IMG/VR virus record: IMGVR_UViG_3300020122_000089
Location: 40,059 to 104,058 of that record
Strand: one strand, 5' to 3'
DNA length: 64,000 nt
From: a virus
The position numbers and the translations under genes are program-made. The notes below the pieces were generated by a model. That model worked only from the letters and a program-made list of their open reading frames with translations, was not told the origin of the DNA and ran no database searches. Positions 3,647 to 64,000 of this stretch are shown here, piece by piece; the stretch's first letter is position 1; every line of letters begins with the position of its first letter.

Positions 3647-5333
3647 ACAAACCCTCCGCACCCACAACCTGCTTGCCGCCAGCATCGCTACCGCTCATCC
3701 CTATTGCAAAACTATGAATTTCCTGGATATCTAAATGCTTGAACTGGCCTGTTTGATTCGCACCTTGAGAAATGTTTGTTCCTTGCGCATTTGACGTTGA
3801 GAGATTAAGATCGCTATAGATATCGAGCCGGTGGGCAACGTCTGCAATCGACTCGGCGCCTATAAAGGTTTTTCCAAACGCGGCAAAATCACCTGCTTGA
3901 AATTGAGATACTAAACTCCAACCTGTACCGCCGCCTGTTTCGGGGGTGTAAAGATTACCTGCCGAGTCAGAGAACAAAGCCCTTCCGTTTACAGTATCAG
4001 TTACCGCTGTAACTATCGAGGCAGGCATGTCCATTGGGGTGTTCCATTGGGCGAGATAACGATTGTAGGAGATACCGATCGAGCCATTAACATAAAATAC
4101 ACTATCCGATGCGGGGTCGTAACATACCACCACGTTGCCAGCGGCATACCCGTTAGCAGCAAAAAATTGCATAACAGGGGCGGCGAAAGAGGTTGCTTCG
4201 TCGTTCGGGTCGCGATAAGAGCTGCCACCTAAACTGTATCTATCTCTGACAGGGCCGCGAGTGCCAAGCCAGGCGTATATCTCACCTCCAACGGTGGCGA
4301 TTTGATTTGCACTTACCACACCTGTGGTTGGCCAAATTGGGTAGACGTTTAATGGGCTAATAGTGCTCTGTGATGCTGATACAAGATTCACACTTGAAGC
4401 GGTACAAACAAGGACCCGACCTTCAACGCCACTTCCTTTTACAGCAGTAATCGTTCCACCGCCGGGAATGAATAATACAAAACTTACGGGATAGGCTTCT
4501 GGCTTGTTTGGGTACGAGGGGGATAATCCAGCACCACCATAACATCCTGCCGCTACTATGACAGAATTGATTGCAAAACAAAAACCACAGGTGGGCGGAA
4601 CGCTGAAGGTCTGAGGAGCTAAATCGCCAAGCTGCGCGTCTATCCATCCAGGGGTTGTGTCGTTTGGTACTTGAATCGTATATGGAAGAGTCGGAATAGT
4701 AGTGTCGTAAAGATGAAAGTAAGGACCGATAGAACCAAACCCGCGCTTTGTAGCGTAAATGCCTATCTTGTTTGCACCAGCAGGAAGGCCGGGAAGGGCT
4801 GTGATATTTATTCCATGATTAGTGACTGATATGACATTTGAAGGTGCGCTGACGCTCGATTCGCCACCTGTTAAGGACCTGATTCCAGTAACGGCAATTG
4901 AATAAGCACCATTGTTATGCCCGGCGACGCCACTATCGGCTATTGTTGGCGCGCCTGGTGGTAAGAGGCCAGCAGCTACGGCCGAGCTTCCTGTGTAAAT
5001 CGTTACCGATCCGCCTTGAACAGCGCCAAGCGTTACGCCGCCAACCCTTGCAAATCCAGAGCCAGCGAAGAAATAAATTCCATTGCCAAAAGCCTGTACT
5101 ATACTTCCGCCACCGCTTAACCCTCCATAAGTAGAGGCGACATTTAATAGCGGATTCACGCCACCTGAACTAGCAACGGACCCACCAAAGCCTTTCGAGG
5201 TAATTAGTAACCCTTTACCACGTACCCATAGATTTTTACCGGCCAATAGGGTATGTGGTACGCCAAAGATTGGCGCAGTAGAGGGCCAATAGCCGTTTTC
5301 AAAGAAAAATCTCGCGGGTATTCTATCGCTCAT
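3621..5333 (-). CDS. Beta-rich tail or head-tail structural protein
   Basis: 570 aa, Gly/Ser/Thr-rich, with many short beta motifs (GGEIYAWLGTRGPVRDRY, VVVCYDPASDSVFYVNG). This resembles the stabilising or tubular tail proteins of short-tailed phages, though no diagnostic motif is present. ATG 5333 lies 3 nt after GGAAG of an exact palindrome (5335-5348), which is the only plausible Shine-Dalgarno site. The 3' end overlaps the plus-strand endonuclease gene. Confidence 0.6.
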   Translation of the reverse strand: MSDRIPARFFFENGYWPSTAPIFGVPHTLLAGKNLWVRGKGLLITSKGFGGSVASSGGVNPLLNVASTYGGLSGGGSIVQAFGNGIYFFAGSGFARVGGVTLGAVQGGSVTIYTGSSAVAAGLLPPGAPTIADSGVAGHNNGAYSIAVTGIRSLTGGESSVSAPSNVISVTNHGINITALPGLPAGANKIGIYATKRGFGSIGPYFHLYDTTIPTLPYTIQVPNDTTPGWIDAQLGDLAPQTFSVPPTCGFCFAINSVIVAAGCYGGAGLSPSYPNKPEAYPVSFVLFIPGGGTITAVKGSGVEGRVLVCTASSVNLVSASQSTISPLNVYPIWPTTGVVSANQIATVGGEIYAWLGTRGPVRDRYSLGGSSYRDPNDEATSFAAPVMQFFAANGYAAGNVVVCYDPASDSVFYVNGSIGISYNRYLAQWNTPMDMPASIVTAVTDTVNGRALFSDSAGNLYTPETGGGTGWSLVSQFQAGDFAAFGKTFIGAESIADVAHRLDIYSDLNLSTSNAQGTNISQGANQTGQFKHLDIQEIHSFAIGMSGSDAGGKQVVGAEGLFIEHPVRI

Positions 5334-5356
5334 TTTCTTCCGGAAGAATTATTTTC

Positions 5357-23585: not shown

Positions 23586-23861
23586 TTAGTATCGCCCTTC
23601 AAGTCGGATGCGATACAGTGTAGCGGTGCGGACGCCCGGACTAAGTTGCAGAATCAGCTTGTTACCACTGATCTGATACGTAGTAGGCGCCGATCCGTTA
23701 TATGACTCAACATCGAAGTCATCGATCTTCGTGATATAACGGGCCGTTATAGTGCCTGGACCGGAGTCGGTCGCAAGCGCTGTTGCGGTCCACCGCTCTA
23801 TCTTCTTGGTGCCCGCGTAATCGGGAGCCAAGGTGTCGACCAATGTCGGTGTAAACGCCAT
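23586..23861 (-). CDS. Small beta-rich head protein, unknown
   Basis: 91 aa, directly behind the capsid gene with a strong Shine-Dalgarno site (AAGGAGGAG). The sequence alternates short strands (NKLILQLSPGVRTATLYRIRL), as expected for a capsid decoration or stabilising protein. That role is inferred from position. Confidence 0.6.
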   Translation of the reverse strand: MAFTPTLVDTLAPDYAGTKKIERWTATALATDSGPGTITARYITKIDDFDVESYNGSAPTTYQISGNKLILQLSPGVRTATLYRIRLEGRY

Positions 23862-23888: not shown

Positions 23889-26800
23889 TTACGCGAATGC
23901 TACGGCCGGTCCTGGCAGGTTTGTAATGTCGGAATTACTAATGAGCCAGTGGCAGCCGAAGCGGGTAGCCCCGCCTTGTGTTAGCTTATGGTTCGATTTT
24001 CCATAAGAGCAGACTATCGCATCGCCTATTTTAGGCGCCTCTTCGTTTAGTCGTTCACGCTGATTATCTTGCGCCCTGTTTGGGTTCTCACCATTCAAGT
24101 CTATTAGAAGAGGTTTTCGCATATCATTATCTCTAACAATATGGCCCCATCGGTGGAGGTCGTACTTACAGCCAAGGAACCCTATCCACTGATCGTAATA
24201 AGTCCCCCCGCTGGTGTACTGCCTGACCTGAAGCGTATCACGCGCATACGCCCCGAACTTCATTCATCTGTAATCTCCGGTTTTCACCGGAGTGTCGGAC
24301 TATATTATCGGCTGTAAACATTACAGTCGCCGGGCGCTCTAGCTGGTAAATTAAAGGGACTAAACCCTTCCAGTAGTCTCTACACCTTCCGAGGGTGTAC
24401 CCTCGACTTGGCTCGGTATTACCATACTATTTATTTCGTTTAGGCTTCACCGAATTCACCCGGTTAATTTCCCCTAGCATCACTGCTAGGTGAGCCAATT
24501 GTTAGTTTAGCTCGTACACATTGATTTCCGCCGGATTCACACCGTACGTCCTGTCCGGGTCAATCGCGACATGGGTTTCCCAGGTAATGCCTTCTCCAAA
24601 TTTCACGTCAGTGAACGTTTTGTTACTTCCCTTTCGGGAGGGTATATCATTTCTGTATACCTCTGTATGTTTCCATACAGCCCAGACTATCTCATATTCT
24701 CACTTGACAATGGCGCCTGTTTCATGTTATAATGTTTGGCATTATGCCACAAAAATTCGGACGCTTAACTGTTCTGGGTAGGTCTTACAACAATCCATCT
24801 AAATTTCAATTCGCCAGATGGACCTGTTTATGCGATTGCGGAAACATCGTAGAGCCACTTGCAATTCATGTGCGATCTGGAAACACCCAATCCTGCGGAT
24901 GCTTGCAGCGCGAAGCTGCGAGCAGACAGGGTAAGGCGAATGCTACGCATGGACTGTCGGGTACGCCTGAGGCCTACATCTACTATGCAATGCTTCAAAG
25001 GTGTTTTAACCCGGAGCATCCTAGCTATCAAAACTATGGCGGCCGTGGTATTACGGTATGTGAAAGATGGATTGGTGCTGAAGGATTGGCCAACTTTCTC
25101 GCCGATCTCGGGCCGCGCCCTAGTTCTGATTTGACACTCGAACGCAAGAATAACGATGGAAACTACGATCCCGATAATTGTAAATGGGATACACGCGATA
25201 ATCAGAATCGCAATTATCGTCGCAACCGATTTCTTACCTTTAATGAAAAGACGCAGTGTATCGCCGATTGGGCCAGCGAAACAGGTCTCTCTCATGATAC
25301 AATTAGCTATCGGTTGGCTCATGGATGGTCCGTCGAAAAGACTCTAACTACACCTACCAAAAACAGTCTCAAGTAAGAACCGGGGCGTTATTAGGCTCTT
25401 ATTGGATTGACTCCTCAAGCCTTAGTCGTTGCACCTGCCCGCCTACTTTTACGTCATTCGGCGAGATTGGCTCAGGATTTCCATGTCTCAAATTAACGAG
25501 ATTTAGGATTCCCTGAATTAACCCCGTTTGCTTACAGATGTTACCACCTGTAGGGACTTCTTTACAGAAATCCATTCTTAGCGATCCACCGCCCCCGTCA
25601 AAACGTTGCAAATTATATCCGTTCGTTGCTGTTATCCGGCCTACGCCGAAACTGGTCATTTCTGCCAGTTTCTTGCGGTTATTTTTCCCGCAAGACCAGA
25701 ACATTGCATCATCCTTATAGGATGTCGCCTCATTTGTTCGTTCACGCTGATTTCTTCCGGAAGAAACCTTGCGCCTCGTTGGCATTTCAGCCTCCGGGTC
25801 GATTACAGGCGATTTGCATCCCCGTATCACTACAGGACGGTCCAGGATTCCAGACATGTAGGCAGCTTTTTGGGTCGGGGAGGAAAGGATCAAAGTGTTA
25901 CCTGGGTTGTCGGTCCGATACCTGAGGCTAAAGTGCACCTCTACGAGCAATGCTACCTGCAATCTCTGTTGAGATGCATTTAGAACAATGCTCTTTAGGT
26001 ATGGACGGTTGGATCTGAGTTGACCTTGGATTTCCCCCTTATGTGTTAGCTTACGATTTTTCTTTTCGTAAGAACAGACTATCGCATCATCCTGACGTGC
26101 ATACAGGACGCCTTCTCGTTTAGTCGTTCACGGTAGATTCTTCCGGAAGAATTATCCTTCCGCCCTATCAGCATTGCAGCTTTTAAGTCGATCAGAGAAG
26201 GTTTTCTATTCATCGTCACCGATGAATGCACCCGAGATTGAGTGTCATTGTTTACAAGATCGGTCACAATCTGTTACCTCTTCCTTGTGGAAGCGGGCGA
26301 GTCGTTTCCGCTCACCTCTGCATGTTACCATGCAGTTCAGACTATATCTTTCTGAGTTTTCTTGATAAGCATTCTTAGCGCCTCCGTATCCGGAAAACCC
26401 TTCTTGATTAGGTAATGAATCGCCGCCGCTTTTACGTTCAATGTTTCAGCCCAAGCGGTGATACATTGCGTAACGTCATCGAGTGTTATCATGTGATTAC
26501 GCCGCGTATTACGCATCTGCTCTTTCTTGGTTGCCCACTTCACATTCCCTGGTTCGTAATTGCCGTTGTTGTCAATGCGCTCAAGAGAATGTTCTGGTGA
26601 TGGCCTTTCACCTACATCGGCGATCCAGTTTTCAAAGCCGTGCTCGCCAATCCACCTATCGGCAACCTTTATGCCACGTCCACCGTAATTTGGATAAGAA
26701 ATCCCCGATTTTCTACGGCAGCGTGTAAGCATGGCGCAGTACAATTCATACTCCACCGTATGCGAACGTCCATGCGTTCGGTTACCTGCCGCGGCGGCTT

Positions 26801-29594
26801 CCCGCTGTTTCTGTCCTTTATTGCGCTCTATTAATTCCTCTGTGCGTAAACAGCCGCAAGATTTAGTGACGCGATCATAGAGGCGCCTGGGCCGTGCAAG
26901 GATTTCGTTACCGCAATCACACTTACAAACATATCGAGTACGTACGTACCGTCCGATGGCAACCTGAACCCTCCGTATGACTGTCAGGCGGCCTACCCTG
27001 GGCGGAATTGGAAGCGCTGGATACATGCTTACTCAAACCTCAGACCGGGCATTGGCACGGGGTTATTAGTTTAGCCTCTTCACCCGTTAGTCGTTGAACG
27101 TTCCTGCCTACTGCTAAGCTATTCGGCAGGCTTCGCTGCTGATTGTCCTTTGAAAGGAGTTCCCAGCAATTAACCCGGTTTATCCTGGGCTGTTGATTCA
27201 ACCCATGTGGAGCCTTTAGCGCCGACCCCTCATAAGTGAGGTAATCATTCGCCGTAGTCCCCGTTGGCACTGTGTCGCACGTGATGACGCTCGTTGAGCG
27301 GTTGTTACCACCTGGGTCAACAACCACTCCGGTTGTAGGAGCGCCACGCGCTACGTTTGTAGTACCGTTTACGAAGTGAATACGTGCTCCGTCTTTTACT
27401 TTGAAGGAGCCGAACGTGCCGCCGTCTGCTACGGTTACGGCGCAGGTTACTGTACCGTTAGCACCTGTAGTAGCACTCTTGACTACCGCTATTGCACCGT
27501 TCTTAGAACCTGCAATTTGGAAGTCCAAAGTCTTCTTGGAGGCTTCGGTTTGGAGGAGGTAGAGGTCGCTGATTTTGTCAATCAGTGCATCGCCTCCGAT
27601 GTTGTCGAACACGTCCCCCGAAATAAGGAACGCGGTTGCGTATCTTGCTGGAAAAATCCGCATGTCATTACGGTCCTCCAACGGTTCAATTTCCGTTGGC
27701 CCGGGCCATCGCATCGTCTTGAACAGACGCCTCTCCGTTTGGTCTCTCACGCTACTAGATTCTTCCGGAAGAATTAGTTTGCGCCCCGTTCCCGTTTCAG
27801 GGTCCGAGTCTATTAGGGGTGGTTTACATAATCCACGTCGCCGTAGATTGAGTCCAATGTTTGAACTGCGGATTATCGGCAACTGGCATTGCTCCGCCTT
27901 CAGTGAAGTCGGTCTTGTTACTAGCTCTTTTTGTAAAGAGCCGGACGGGTCATTTCTGCCCATCTCTGCATTTTTCAATGCAGCCCGGACTATATCATAA
28001 ACTTTACCTTGATTTTCCTCAAGAAATGTGCTATAATGACGCACATGTATAAAGCGAAAAGCCTTGTCGGCCAAAGATTCGGACGTCTCATCGTTGTTGC
28101 GTTCTCGCATAGAAACGACAAGAAGAGGTCGAACCATTGGCTCTGTCAATGTGATTGTGGTGGGACGGCTACGCCATCCTCTTACGCCTTGAATTCTGGT
28201 CATACCCAATCCTGCGGATGTTATCACGCAGATTGCGCACGTGCTCAAGGTCATAAAAGTCGCAAACATGGAATGTCTAGGACGGCTGAATACTACGCTT
28301 GGAATTCCATGAAGGGTCGCGTTCTTTTTTCTCATCATCCTGGATATCCGGATTATGGCGGTCGAGGTATCACTATCTGCGACCGCTGGCTTGATCCGGA
28401 GCATGGGTTTGAGAATTTTTTGGAGGATATGGGGCCACGGCCTCATGATCAACTCTCTGTAGAACGCATGAATAACCACGGTAATTACGAGCCAGGAAAT
28501 TGCAAGTGGGGAACGGATACTGAACAGGCTCGAAATAAGCGCAGTAATCATCCTCTGACTTTTAACAACAAAACCCAGCCTATGTCCGCCTGGGCGGAGG
28601 AAACTGGATTGCCATATCACATTATCAGCCATCGTATTCGTGCTGGCTGGAGTGTCGAACGGGCGCTGACTGAACCTATCAATCAATCGTATTCCCGTCG
28701 AAAAAGGTAAAGCCCTGGGGCGCTGTTTGGCGTTACTAAGATTAGCTCTTTCGGCCATAGTCTCTGGACCTTCCTACCTACTTTTATGCTATTCGGTAGG
28801 CTTGGCTGCTGATTACCATATCTCGCGGTTGAGATTTAGGCTTCCAGCAATTCACCCCATTCATGTTAGATGTCACCATCTAACAGCCCATTGTGCATAG
28901 GAGTCGGATGCCGGCGGGCGGTCGTAGAAAGGAATTCTGTAACCCCGTTGATTGACCTGTATGGCCTTCCCTTTATGGAAGCGGTTGTACAATTTTTGTT
29001 GCGTTCCTTAGAACGGATGGATATTTTCATTCCACCTCTTACGGTTCAGATTTCCGCAAGATCGGACTGTTGCATAACCTAACAAATCAGGCCCCTCTTC
29101 GCTCAGTCTCTCACGGTAAAGATTTTTCTCTTTTTCCGCCTCGTTACCATGTTGCAGGTTTCGAGTCAATAAGAAGAGGTTTTCATCTATCGTTTTCACG
29201 GTAAATGCCCCGTATTTTGATGCCCAGGGTTTGGCTCTCTTCGAACTGTTTTTCAATCTCGGGATTGACAGCAGTCCTCACTACGGCTTCAAATTGGCTA
29301 AAAACAAGCTCCCGGTTTCTGGCGATTTTTCTTTTTCGCCAGCCCAGACTGTCGCATCACCCTTTTGGGCGCCTTCTCGCTCAGTCGTTTACGCCGCTCG
29401 GATTCATACCGCTCGTATAACGTTGGTCTCGTTAATTCGGATTCAACAATCCGTCCTAACTGTTTCCAAAGTTTATCTGCCAATACTTCATCCTGCTTGC
29501 GCATTGTTCCCGTTTCAGGATTCAACTCAATCAGAGAAGGTTGTTTTCCAAAGGAGGCTGTATCGCTACAGGGCTGGCCGAGCTTTTCAGCCAT
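23889..29594 (-). CDS. Major capsid protein gene split by ten group I introns
   Basis: Start ATG 29594, stop TAA 23891-23889. Capsid peptide is found in short exons between intron cores: about 29545-29594 (MAEKLGQPCSDTASFG); 29215-29305 (FEAVVRTAVNPEIEKQFEES); 28885-29015 (KLYNRFHKGKAIQVNQRGYR then IPFYDRPPASDSYAQW); 27830-27915 (EGGAMPVADNPQFKHWTQST); 27200-27670 (RYATAFLISGDVFDNIGG to YEGSALKAPHGLN); 26215-26275 (IVTDLVNNDTQSRVHSS); 25830-26030 (LILSSPTQKAAYMS); 25540-25650 (VGRITATNGYNLQRFDGGGG); 24505-24615 (FGEGITWETHVAIDPDRTYG); 24150-24265 (FGAYARDTLQVRQYTSGG then TYYDQWIGFLGCKYDL); 23889-23970 (CHWLISNSDITNLPG). The order and motifs match a phage major capsid protein as I know it. Splice sites are approximate. 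Confidence 0.8.
23970..24150 (-). ncRNA. Group I intron 10 of the capsid gene (compact type)
   Basis: R element GTGAACGACTAAACG (24059-24045) and S element GCGATAGTCTG pair as GACTA/TAGTC (P7). P8 is GCCTAAAATAGGC and P9 is CTTATGG...CCATAAG. No ORF of its own and no palindrome. The coding frame happens to stay open through it. Ends approximate. Confidence 0.75.
24265..24505 (-). ncRNA. Group I intron 9 of the capsid gene (classic core, no ORF)
   Basis: Canonical P (GAATTCGGTGAAGCCTAA), Q (AATACCGAGCCAAG), R (GTGTAGAGACTAC) and S (AATATAGTCCG) blocks are all present in order on the minus strand in about 240 nt. GACTA/TAGTC forms P7. This is the clearest complete core in the set. Confidence 0.85.
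24704..24733 (+). promoter_or_regulatory. Promoter of the antisense intronic HNH gene
   Basis: TTGACA (24704-24709), 18 nt, TATAAT (24728-24733), ATG 24744 after 10 nt. It starts within 12 nt of the intron's S element. Confidence 0.75.
24744..25376 (+). CDS. HNH homing endonuclease in intron 8, antisense
   Basis: 210 aa. N-terminal Cys ribbon (CLCDCGN ... SCGCL), then the family core YGGRGITVCERW, LADLGPRPSSDLTLERKNN and NGNYDPDNCKWDTRDNQNRN (about 120-180), giving the H/E-N-N pattern of these phage HNH enzymes. A C-terminal helix-turn-helix (ADWASETGLSHDTISYRL) probably reads target DNA. Own promoter; the intron and capsid gene are transcribed from the other strand. Confidence 0.85.
   Translation: MPQKFGRLTVLGRSYNNPSKFQFARWTCLCDCGNIVEPLAIHVRSGNTQSCGCLQREAASRQGKANATHGLSGTPEAYIYYAMLQRCFNPEHPSYQNYGGRGITVCERWIGAEGLANFLADLGPRPSSDLTLERKNNDGNYDPDNCKWDTRDNQNRNYRRNRFLTFNEKTQCIADWASETGLSHDTISYRLAHGWSVEKTLTTPTKNSLK
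25650..25830 (-). ncRNA. Group I intron 7 of the capsid gene (compact, holds a palindrome)
   Basis: R GTGAACGAACAAATG and S GCAATGTTCTGG pair as GAACA/TGTTC, a compensated variant of the usual P7 pair. P8 is ATCCTATAAGGAT and P9 CTTGCGG...CCGCAAG. An exact palindrome (25752-25765) sits just upstream of R, in the place of a peripheral hairpin. Confidence 0.75.
26030..26215 (-). ncRNA. Group I intron 6 of the capsid gene (compact, holds a palindrome)
   Basis: R GTGAACGACTAAACG, S GCGATAGTCTG (P7 GACTA/TAGTC), P8 around TCCTG...CAGGA, P9 CTTACGA...TCGTAAG. An exact palindrome (26138-26151) lies directly before R. Confidence 0.75.
26275..27200 (-). ncRNA. Group I intron 5 of the capsid gene, with sense HNH gene
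   Basis: P (GGGTTAATTGCTGGGAAC), Q (AATCAGCAGCGAAGCC) and R (GTTCAACGACTAACGG) at about 27185-27085; S (AAGATATAGTCTGAAC) at about 26349-26334. The HNH gene fills the P8 position in the same orientation as the intron, and its last codons overlap S. Confidence 0.85.
26337..27026 (-). CDS. HNH homing endonuclease in intron 5, sense
   Basis: 229 aa of the same family as the other two intronic enzymes: Cys ribbon (CKCDCGNEI ... SCGCL), YGGRGIKVADRW, IADVGERPSPEHSLERIDNN, NGNYEPGNVKWATKKEQMRN. The C-terminus (KDIV, stop TGA) is encoded by the intron's S sequence, so catalytic RNA and protein end share bases. No promoter is seen; probably made from the capsid transcript. Confidence 0.85.
   Translation of the reverse strand: MYPALPIPPRVGRLTVIRRVQVAIGRYVRTRYVCKCDCGNEILARPRRLYDRVTKSCGCLRTEELIERNKGQKQREAAAAGNRTHGRSHTVEYELYCAMLTRCRRKSGISYPNYGGRGIKVADRWIGEHGFENWIADVGERPSPEHSLERIDNNGNYEPGNVKWATKKEQMRNTRRNHMITLDDVTQCITAWAETLNVKAAAIHYLIKKGFPDTEALRMLIKKTQKDIV
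27670..27830 (-). ncRNA. Group I intron 4 of the capsid gene (compact, holds a palindrome)
   Basis: R GTGAGAGACCAAACG and S GCGATGGCCCGG give a weaker P7 (GACCA/TGGCC, one mismatch). P8 is GTCTGTTCAAGAC and P9 CCAACGG...CCGTTGG. An exact palindrome (27760-27773) precedes R. It shares the AATAGACTCGGACCCTGAAA block of the compact family. Confidence 0.7.
28009..28037 (+). promoter_or_regulatory. Promoter of the antisense intronic HNH gene
   Basis: TTGATT (28009-28014), 17 nt ending TGTGC, TATAAT (28032-28037), ATG 28045 after 7 nt. Starts within about 10 nt of the intron's S element, as in intron 8. Confidence 0.75.
28045..28710 (+). CDS. HNH homing endonuclease in intron 3, antisense
   Basis: 221 aa. 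Cys ribbon (CQCDCGGTA ... SCGCY), YGGRGITICDRW, LEDMGPRPHDQLSVERMNN, NGNYEPGNCKWGTDTEQARN, and a C-terminal helix-turn-helix (SAWAEETGLPYHIISHRI). Closely related to the enzyme of intron 8 and in the same antisense arrangement, which suggests the intron-plus-gene unit was copied or that both entered the same way. Confidence 0.85.
   Translation: MYKAKSLVGQRFGRLIVVAFSHRNDKKRSNHWLCQCDCGGTATPSSYALNSGHTQSCGCYHADCARAQGHKSRKHGMSRTAEYYAWNSMKGRVLFSHHPGYPDYGGRGITICDRWLDPEHGFENFLEDMGPRPHDQLSVERMNNHGNYEPGNCKWGTDTEQARNKRSNHPLTFNNKTQPMSAWAEETGLPYHIISHRIRAGWSVERALTEPINQSYSRRKR
29015..29215 (-). ncRNA. Group I intron 2 of the capsid gene (compact type)
   Basis: R GTGAGAGACTGAGCG and S GCAACAGTCCG pair as GACTG/CAGTC (compensated P7). 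P8 is GCCTGATTTGTTAGGT and P9 CTTGCGG...CCGTAAG. No palindrome. Confidence 0.75.
29305..29545 (-). ncRNA. Group I intron 1 of the capsid gene (compact type)
   Basis: R GTAAACGACTGAGCG and S GCGACAGTCTGGG pair as GACTG/CAGTC. P8 is GCCCAAAAGGGT and P9 CTGGCGA...TCGCCAG. It has about 70-100 extra nt before R compared with the other compact introns. Exon 1 is very short. Confidence 0.75.
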
Positions 29595-63730: not shown

Positions 63731-64000
63731 ATGATTGAAATTAAGCATAGAAACGGGACGGTGCTACGAGTGATTAACGCCGATACCTTGAGCGGCTCGG
63801 ACTTGAGCTACTCGGACTTGCGCGGCTCGGACTTGCGCGGCTCGGACTTGCGCGGCTCGGACTTGCGCGACTCGGACTTGCGCGGCTCGGACTTGCGCGG
63901 CTCGGACTTGCGCGGCTCGGACTTGCGCGGCTCGGACTTGCGCGGCTCGGACTTGCGCGGCTCGGACTTGCGCGGCTCGGACTTGCGCGGCTCGGACTTG
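63731..64000 (+). CDS. Pentapeptide-repeat protein, 5' part
   Basis: Starts MIEIKHRNGTVLRVINADTL, then repeats of five residues (L-S/R-G/Y-S-D) to the window edge, at least 14 units. The Leu/Phe centre and the five-residue step match the pentapeptide-repeat family, whose right-handed beta helix mimics DNA in known members. A ribosome-binding site (AGAGAGGGGGG) precedes ATG 63731. The gene runs off the right edge. Confidence 0.85.
   Translation, partial: MIEIKHRNGTVLRVINADTLSGSDLSYSDLRGSDLRGSDLRGSDLRDSDLRGSDLRGSDLRGSDLRGSDLRGSDLRGSDLRGSDLRGSDL
63788..64000 (+). repeat. 15-bp tandem repeat in the pentapeptide gene
   Basis: The unit CGCGGCTCGGACTTG recurs about 14 times, nearly identical at DNA level (only AGC/TAC and GAC variants). 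Identical DNA rather than just protein suggests recent expansion. The contig ends inside it. Confidence 0.9.

Follow-up and report, generated by a model that had tools for sequence, protein, structure and literature searches.

Intron-rich capsid genes and group I introns in phages

In crAss-like phages, introns are reported in core genes of the Delta group, the major capsid protein (MCP) gene among them, and in the Zeta and Delta groups the MCP gene is described with four insertions and five fragments (PMC7886860). The MCP gene of Faustovirus E12 is reported to hold 12 introns, two of them with homing endonuclease ORFs, and exons from 13 nt upwards (PMC6247863), and in mirusviruses introns are described as enriched in virion genes including the MCP gene, variable in position between close relatives and associated with homing endonucleases (PMC12768974). 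Outside viruses, 18 group I introns are given for the mitochondrial cox1 of Agaricus bisporus (PMC2987802). Among phages with many group I introns, splicing is reported as supported for 37 of 76 introns in three genomes of Jug phages (PMC12363816), and in Bastillevirinae 45 introns are described in 37 genes, with terL in 2–3 fragments and splicing supported in eight of nine genes tested (PMC11878797).

The locus described here lies in a 64,000-nucleotide stretch of viral DNA (hereafter the window), bases 40059–104058 of a 104,058-base virus record. As in crAss-like phages, a phage capsid gene has several insertions, but it has eleven exons and ten introns as against the five fragments and four insertions reported for their MCP gene; moreover, up to 14 introns per genome are given for crAss-like phages (PMC7886860), whereas all introns detected in the window phage lie in one gene. 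With Faustovirus E12 it shares an intron-rich viral capsid gene with very short exons; Faustovirus, however, is a giant virus of amoebae, and five of its 12 introns are described as group I and seven as spliceosome-like (PMC6247863). With mirusviruses it shares an intron-enriched capsid gene, variable sites and homing endonucleases, but mirusvirus introns are spliceosomal, belong to viruses of eukaryotes and are said to be without group I signatures (PMC12768974). Group I introns are likewise numerous in the genomes or taxa of Jug phages and Bastillevirinae, but they are described there in terL, nrdD, DNA polymerase and similar genes (PMC12363816, PMC11878797), and cox1 of A. bisporus is likewise one gene with many group I introns, but of a fungal organelle (PMC2987802). 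In the literature found there is neither a phage gene with ten or more group I introns nor a report of a group I intron class that favours capsid genes; most subscription papers lay outside this search, which makes both results weak evidence. The first-pass annotation of this DNA had called ten introns in one capsid gene exceptional, and this agrees with the literature found, in which no phage gene has more and the fungal cox1 has 18. Ten is at most a record for viruses or phages, not an overall one, and the split capsid gene is a new and extreme variant of something already known, group I introns in phage genes. Each virion needs many copies of this protein, and for a phage gene of that kind the intron load reached here is a high mark.

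Structure of the split capsid gene

Very probably, ten group I ribozymes of two classes splice the capsid gene, on the minus strand of the window, to a message for a 421-aa MCP, as would be expected from the intron family to which they belong. We refer to the two classes as RF00028/IA-like (hereafter IA-like), after the Rfam group I model RF00028, and compact. The gene model is as follows.

23889..29594, minus: split MCP gene, 11 exons, 421 aa
29594 and 23889, minus: start codon and end of the stop codon of the MCP gene
29589..29594, minus: exon 1, 6 nt, ATG GCT
29312..29588, minus: intron 1, compact, 277 nt
29225..29311, minus: exon 2, 87 nt
28990..29224, minus: intron 2, compact, 235 nt; each end +/-1 nt, protein unchanged
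28899..28989, minus: exon 3, 91 nt
27910..28898, minus: intron 3, IA-like, 989 nt
27864..27909, minus: exon 4, 46 nt
27671..27863, minus: intron 4, compact, 193 nt
27201..27670, minus: exon 5, 470 nt
26267..27200, minus: intron 5, IA-like, 934 nt
26241..26266, minus: exon 6, 26 nt
26038..26240, minus: intron 6, compact, 203 nt
25852..26037, minus: exon 7, 186 nt
25624..25851, minus: intron 7, compact, 228 nt; frame open throughout
25570..25623, minus: exon 8, 54 nt
24616..25569, minus: intron 8, IA-like, 954 nt
24509..24615, minus: exon 9, 107 nt
24265..24508, minus: intron 9, IA-like, 244 nt, without endonuclease gene
24157..24264, minus: exon 10, 108 nt
23974..24156, minus: intron 10, compact, 183 nt; frame open throughout
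23889..23973, minus: exon 11, 85 nt, includes the stop codon

The two classes are interleaved along the gene (IA-like 3, 5, 8 and 9; compact 1, 2, 4, 6, 7 and 10). Joined, the 11 exons of the spliced gene model give a 421-aa open frame with no internal stop, and the two ends of this model coincide with the span that had been proposed from the letters alone, 23889–29594. The same proposal had capsid peptide lying in order between the introns, which is borne out by the open frame, by its gap-free 91% identity to the likewise 421-aa spliced MCP of a relative from IMG/VR (L008, a 29-kb contig, after removal of eight introns, four compact and four IA-like) and by a match to phrog_14242 ‘major head protein’ (residues 9–379, E=3.5e-7). 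Its estimate of about 50 nt for the shortest exons was too high, the shortest being 6, 26 and 46 nt. The division into two classes, the antisense endonuclease genes, the first exon of 6 nt and the occurrence of compact introns in capsid genes elsewhere go beyond that proposal. No Pfam match to the spliced MCP was found with E up to 0.1. A second relative, L009 (a 104-kb contig), has an uninterrupted MCP gene of 419 aa with 76% identity in the best segment. The junction of exon 1 was placed after the second codon because the L009 and L008 proteins start M-x-E (the N-terminus of the L009 MCP is MAEMVFSQF); an exon 1 ending at a later CCCT was rejected because it would not be in frame with exon 2. 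Each message would have to undergo ten precise splicing events, beginning with a first exon of 6 nt and in a cell in which ribosomes follow the polymerase, as judged from established knowledge of such introns together with the present gene model.

The frame of exon 1 stays open across the whole of intron 1, which has a long P6 insert (29298–29594, minus; 98-aa ORF), so that an unspliced message would yield a 98-aa peptide of exon 1 and intron 1. Directly 3' of the capsid gene, the window, L008 and L009 each encode a small protein of 91–93 aa (window 23586–23861, minus; L008 11496–11774; L009 8330–8611); the three are similar by eye, and the window copy has no PHROG match.

Splice sites and proposed splicing pathway

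Splice sites were placed by P1 pairing, a U before the intron, a terminal G, an open frame and agreement with relatives; equal product length, P1 and terminal G are partly built in because the junctions were chosen with these in view. In all 18 introns of the window and L008, P1 has a U at -1, a U-G pair and at least three exon–guide pairs, and in 15 of them at least four (three pairs in window introns 3 and 10 and L008 intron 4), the guide having been sought 8–14 nt into the intron and the sites picked with P1 in mind. At the other T positions of the two loci (n=2366), at least three pairs occur at 476 (20%) and at least four at 189 (8%). Intron 2 of the window has such a P1 only in an alternative register, cut one base earlier, and its last base is then U. 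In this intron a terminal G rules out a U at -1: the G holds only with a 5' exon ending in G, and either a G at -1 or a 3'-end U is needed. G is the last intron base in 18/18 introns of the chosen model, which required it. Just before the 3' end, a UAACA-like motif (variants UUACA and CAACA) can be seen by eye in 16 of the 18 introns, the same inspection finding none near the 3' ends of window introns 1 and 4.

By analogy with the family, P1 would form between the last exon bases and the intron guide, a U-G pair marking the 5' splice site. The P3–P8 core would fold, and an external guanosine would attack the 5' site. The freed exon would then attack after the terminal intron G, ten such ligations giving a 1266-nt message.

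Intron gain and loss among relatives

In coding coordinates, the introns of the window are inserted at 6, 93, 184, 230, 700, 726, 912, 966, 1073 and 1181, and those of L008 at 26, 74, 225, 293, 729, 919, 1073 and 1138. Site 1073, that of window intron 9, is the sole one in common among 17 distinct sites, and on this ground the introns of the two phages were rejected as orthologues. The unequal neighbouring sites 230/225, 726/729 and 912/919 may be hot spots. In L009, no group I intron was found at the Rfam gathering score in the locus, nor by RF00028 or by R1, a model of the compact class described below, in the whole record. The three relatives have 10 (window), 8 (L008) and 0 (L009) introns, and with one site in common the capsid gene appears to gain and lose introns fast, a conclusion that we hold jointly with the splicing of the gene, and just as firmly. 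These counts, in near-identical proteins of 421, 421 and 419 aa, provide a natural experiment in how introns are gained and lost and where they insert.

Two further loci, L010 and L012, duplicate the contigs of L008 and L009 and did not enter the counts. In GenBank phages, tblastn found no match to the L009 MCP, nor to a partly incorrect fusion of exon 2 to exon 3, and one tail-fibre match to a piece of exon 5 (E=0.8) was disregarded. Among genome contigs, 379 stretches fit a pattern and none encodes a relative; a terminase query gave one relative at 23% (L011), which was left out. No relative was found among PDB sequences, and a structure predicted by AlphaFold for the L009 MCP together with 19 further rows, with the HK97 fold in view, had a mean pLDDT of 31.9, too low for use.

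Endonuclease genes and probable routes of intron spread

Three of the four IA-like introns of the window contain an HNH endonuclease gene, two of them with promoter-like sites.

28009..28710, plus: HNH endonuclease gene in intron 3, antisense to the capsid gene
28009..28037, plus: sigma-70-like promoter match of the intron 3 endonuclease gene, TTGATT-17-TATAAT, 10 of 12
26337..27026, minus: HNH endonuclease gene in intron 5, sense
24732..25376, plus: HNH endonuclease gene in intron 8, antisense
24704..24733, plus: perfect sigma-70 promoter match where the intron 8 endonuclease gene begins, TTGACA-18-TATAAT, 12 of 12

All three ORFs match phrog_374 (HNH; E 3e-65 to 6.2e-54), and against Pfam no family scored above the cut-off. 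The endonucleases of introns 3 and 8 are 49% identical. In both genes the listed ORF start overlaps the promoter-like site, and in-frame ATGs lie at 28045 and 24744, respectively. The intron 3 gene occupies a loop that matches a large insert of the RF00028 alignment. A promoter scan gave 8 sites against 8.6 expected, no excess, and the two endonuclease sites are the best two. Intron 5 of L008 has an antisense endonuclease gene, 43% identical in product to the window intron 5 endonuclease, at which the scan found no promoter-like site. The compact introns of the window have no endonuclease gene, and one of the four in L008 has one: a sense endonuclease-like ORF in compact intron 3 (L008 6819–7637), unlike the HNH-type genes, shows helix-turn-helix matches and a Phage_endo_I/Holliday-resolvase-like end. 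Expression of an endonuclease from the opposite strand would keep ribosomes off the folding intron.

The HNH-type enzymes of the IA-like introns probably spread introns by cutting intron-free capsid alleles, and transfer would take place between co-infecting relatives, by analogy with known homing. For the compact introns, the probable means of spread is co-conversion with an endonuclease intron nearby, or else transposition to guide-matching sites. HNH homing with co-conversion of the adjoining compact introns is the plainest account of the spread.

A different route, which we consider possible but rather unlikely, is that the compact introns multiplied in the gene mainly by reverse splicing into abundant capsid mRNA and then returned to DNA. 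The capsid gene of L008 has only two copies of CAGTTCGAAG, each occupied by a compact intron whose guide is GGACU; intron 4 of the window sits at CAGTT, again with guide GGACU, and reverse splicing in theory is said to need only four to six complementary bases (PMC3984707). However, the same ten bases, CAGTTCGAAG, are present at 74 in the window with no intron there. In L008, CAGTT at 230, 633 and 746 is without a compact intron. Reverse splicing would moreover require reverse transcription, and DNA-level ectopic homing or co-conversion fits the same pattern. Nor do trees cluster the introns by genome: in either class the tree lacks resolution and intermingles introns from the two genomes, which gives no support to a recent burst in one genome (for the IA-like introns, alignment A3, row L8 forms a long branch in a poor position).

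Coding constraint on the exons

The window and L008 differ at 53, 30 and 231 sites in first, second and third codon positions, so that third positions hold 231 of the 314 differences; by codon, 213 differences are synonymous and 37 non-synonymous. As dS between the two is saturated, no dN/dS ratio is given. Equal protein length is no independent test of the gene model because the junctions were chosen with relatives in view; the excess at third positions is one, and indicates that the exons are under strong purifying selection. These differences bear on the suggestion that the gene is decayed, the insertions being remnants and the capsid gene unexpressed. Ten insertions are a heavy load, and introns 2 and 4 are off the canonical pattern, but the constraint on the exons, and their joining without a stop into a product of the same length as in L008, make a dead gene very improbable.

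Two intron classes and their cores

A group I core from P3 to P9 with the P3/P7 pseudoknot is supported by RF00028 for the four IA-like introns and by covariation for the six compact ones. At the gathering score, RF00028 (curated cut-off 50 bits) matches introns 3, 5, 8 and 9 with 66.1 to 91.3 bits, and in a one-genome search all seven of its matches fall on these four. Six of the ten window introns and four of the eight L008 introns score below the cut-off; with E up to 10, intron 6 alone of the six compact introns is added (16.8 bits, E=1.1). The RF00028 alignments of the IA-like introns have an extra stretch between P7 and P3', which we take to be the feature of subgroup IA. In the compact class three alignment columns separate P7 from P3', and there is therefore no room for P7.1/P7.2.

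For the compact class, P2 to P9 with the P3/P7 pseudoknot were drawn on ten introns, six from the window and four from L008. Standard pairs fill 96.2% of the 420 cells; shuffled versions give 73.0%, and slid controls reach no more than 45.2%. Two-sided changes occur at 39 of the 42 proposed base pairs, P3 and P7 included. P2 is capped by a four-base loop in 9 of 10 alignment rows (by eye), presumably of the GNRA type. The first-pass annotation had described P7 pairing in each intron, and in the six compact introns of the window P7 indeed consists of standard pairs throughout, save for one A-C cell in intron 4 (mismatches in that intron: 2 of 7 pairs in P3 and 1 of 5 in P7).

A covariance model, R1, was built from the ten compact introns of both phages, P7 left out. 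In the window, L008 and L009 its only matches are these ten and two weak ones to end portions of IA-like introns (E 0.014 and 0.1). Across the complete records of all three phages, neither R1 nor RF00028 has a match outside the capsid gene. A second model, R2, was built from the four compact introns of L008 alone and is independent of the window. Searched against the window and L009 (79,257 bases, E up to 1), R2 gave six matches, exactly the six compact introns of the window (E 2.2e-25 to 8.3e-20). The ten group I introns first proposed for this minus-strand capsid gene are thus recovered as ten cores, four by RF00028 and six by R2. An Infernal search with RF00028 had been put forward as the check on all ten cores, with misses at several sites to be taken as a sign that the count was wrong: RF00028 does place four of the ten above its cut-off and six below, and taken literally that sign is present, yet R2 finds the six. 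We read the misses as a gap in the model and not as a wrong count because of R2, the two-sided changes, P1 and the intron-free relative. The Rfam model is called clearly incomplete in a study of Bastillevirinae, and the six misses fit that statement (PMC11878797). It is hardly credible that there are fewer introns, for example the four accepted by Rfam with the six compact stretches as in-frame protein insertions or remnants: RF00028 stays below its cut-off at six of ten sites and introns 7 and 10 are open in frame, but P2–P9 with the P3/P7 pseudoknot covaries, the L008-only model recovers all six compact stretches, and these are absent from L009 and, at these sites, from L008.

The compact class in other phages

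An exact pattern of the compact core was searched against IMG/VR, and at least 118 loci were fetched. R1 matches all 118 of those listed, by selection, because the loci were fetched by the compact-core pattern; its 195 matches amount to one to five per locus in 69, 27, 17, 4 and 1 loci, respectively. When 14 of the 22 listed loci with at least three cores were compared with Rfam, RF00028 gave two hits against 48 R1 cores, one of them on an R1 core.

Capsid-like pieces were sought by a local HMM search with six capsid seeds, a core being counted as in or beside such a piece within a loose window of 500 nt before to 700 nt after. Among the matches listed, 77 of the 118 loci have capsid-like pieces on the intron strand, and in 67 a core lies in or beside one, as against a mean of 31.1 and a maximum of 44 in 2000 runs of random placement on the same loci. 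If each cluster of similar cores is represented by a single locus, the figures are 51 of 97 against a random mean of 24.9, again among the matches listed. Under a strict rule, capsid-like pieces flank both sides of 26 of the 195 cores, in 17 loci (matches listed). Of the listed loci, 41 showed no capsid-like piece in this search and 10 more have one further off. The 77 pieces of the listed loci match phrog_1357 (44), phrog_14242 (9) and phrog_544 (1), three families of ‘major head protein’; a single piece matches a family whose function is unknown, and members may match several families. An initial tally took one flanking piece per locus from 114 of the 118 listed loci, four being dropped (<30 aa). 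Three major-head families lead it with 23, 5 and 3 members, and portal, ribonucleotide reductase (RNR), head–tail adaptor and endonuclease families also appear among the matches listed; in Pfam, the pieces of this tally hit four capsid families by one member apiece, three portal families by 3–4 and RNR by 2 (matches listed). Ten pieces from listed multi-intron loci comprise four of phrog_1357, one of an unknown family and five without a match.

Of two query cores, one had a match among GenBank phages, in MW202674.1 (L131), a complete genome of 36.6 kb. There, within the P22-type coat gene region 3691–5206, the core is flanked by two CDSs that bear the annotation ‘P22 coat protein’, its own annotation being ‘hypothetical protein’; R1 scores it at 82.5 bits (E=1.6e-19), and by this match the ‘hypothetical protein’ between the coat CDSs is a predicted compact group I intron. 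Because the compact class largely escapes an Rfam search, split capsid genes of other phages may be entered in annotations as broken genes, MW202674.1 being an example. Judging from these matches, the class occurs commonly among other phages, with an apparent preference for shell-protein genes, and the larger point of this analysis is likely to be a compact, capsid-favouring intron class. A more far-reaching reading, for and against which we see the balance as even, is that the class is widespread, largely missed by Rfam and specialised on MCP genes of unrelated capsid families, where it piles up by repeated local transposition, the capsid gene acting as an intron nursery. The reason for the preference for capsid genes is now a testable question.

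Dispersed repeats

A dispersed 14-nt palindrome, TTCTTCnnGAAGAA, occurs in 17 exact copies in the window, all with centre CG (0.004 expected), for example at 5335, 13634, 23547, 29635, 46165 and 63187. Three of the copies lie in P6 loops of compact introns, at 25752 (intron 7), 26138 (intron 6) and 27760 (intron 4). The L008 locus has 12 copies, with centre CA or TG, and the intron-free L009 locus none. Only 7 of the 17 window copies lie at most 40 nt upstream of the ATG of an ORF of at least 60 aa, as against 26% at random. Close to the end of the window, at 63742–63996, there is a tandem array with a 15-base unit.
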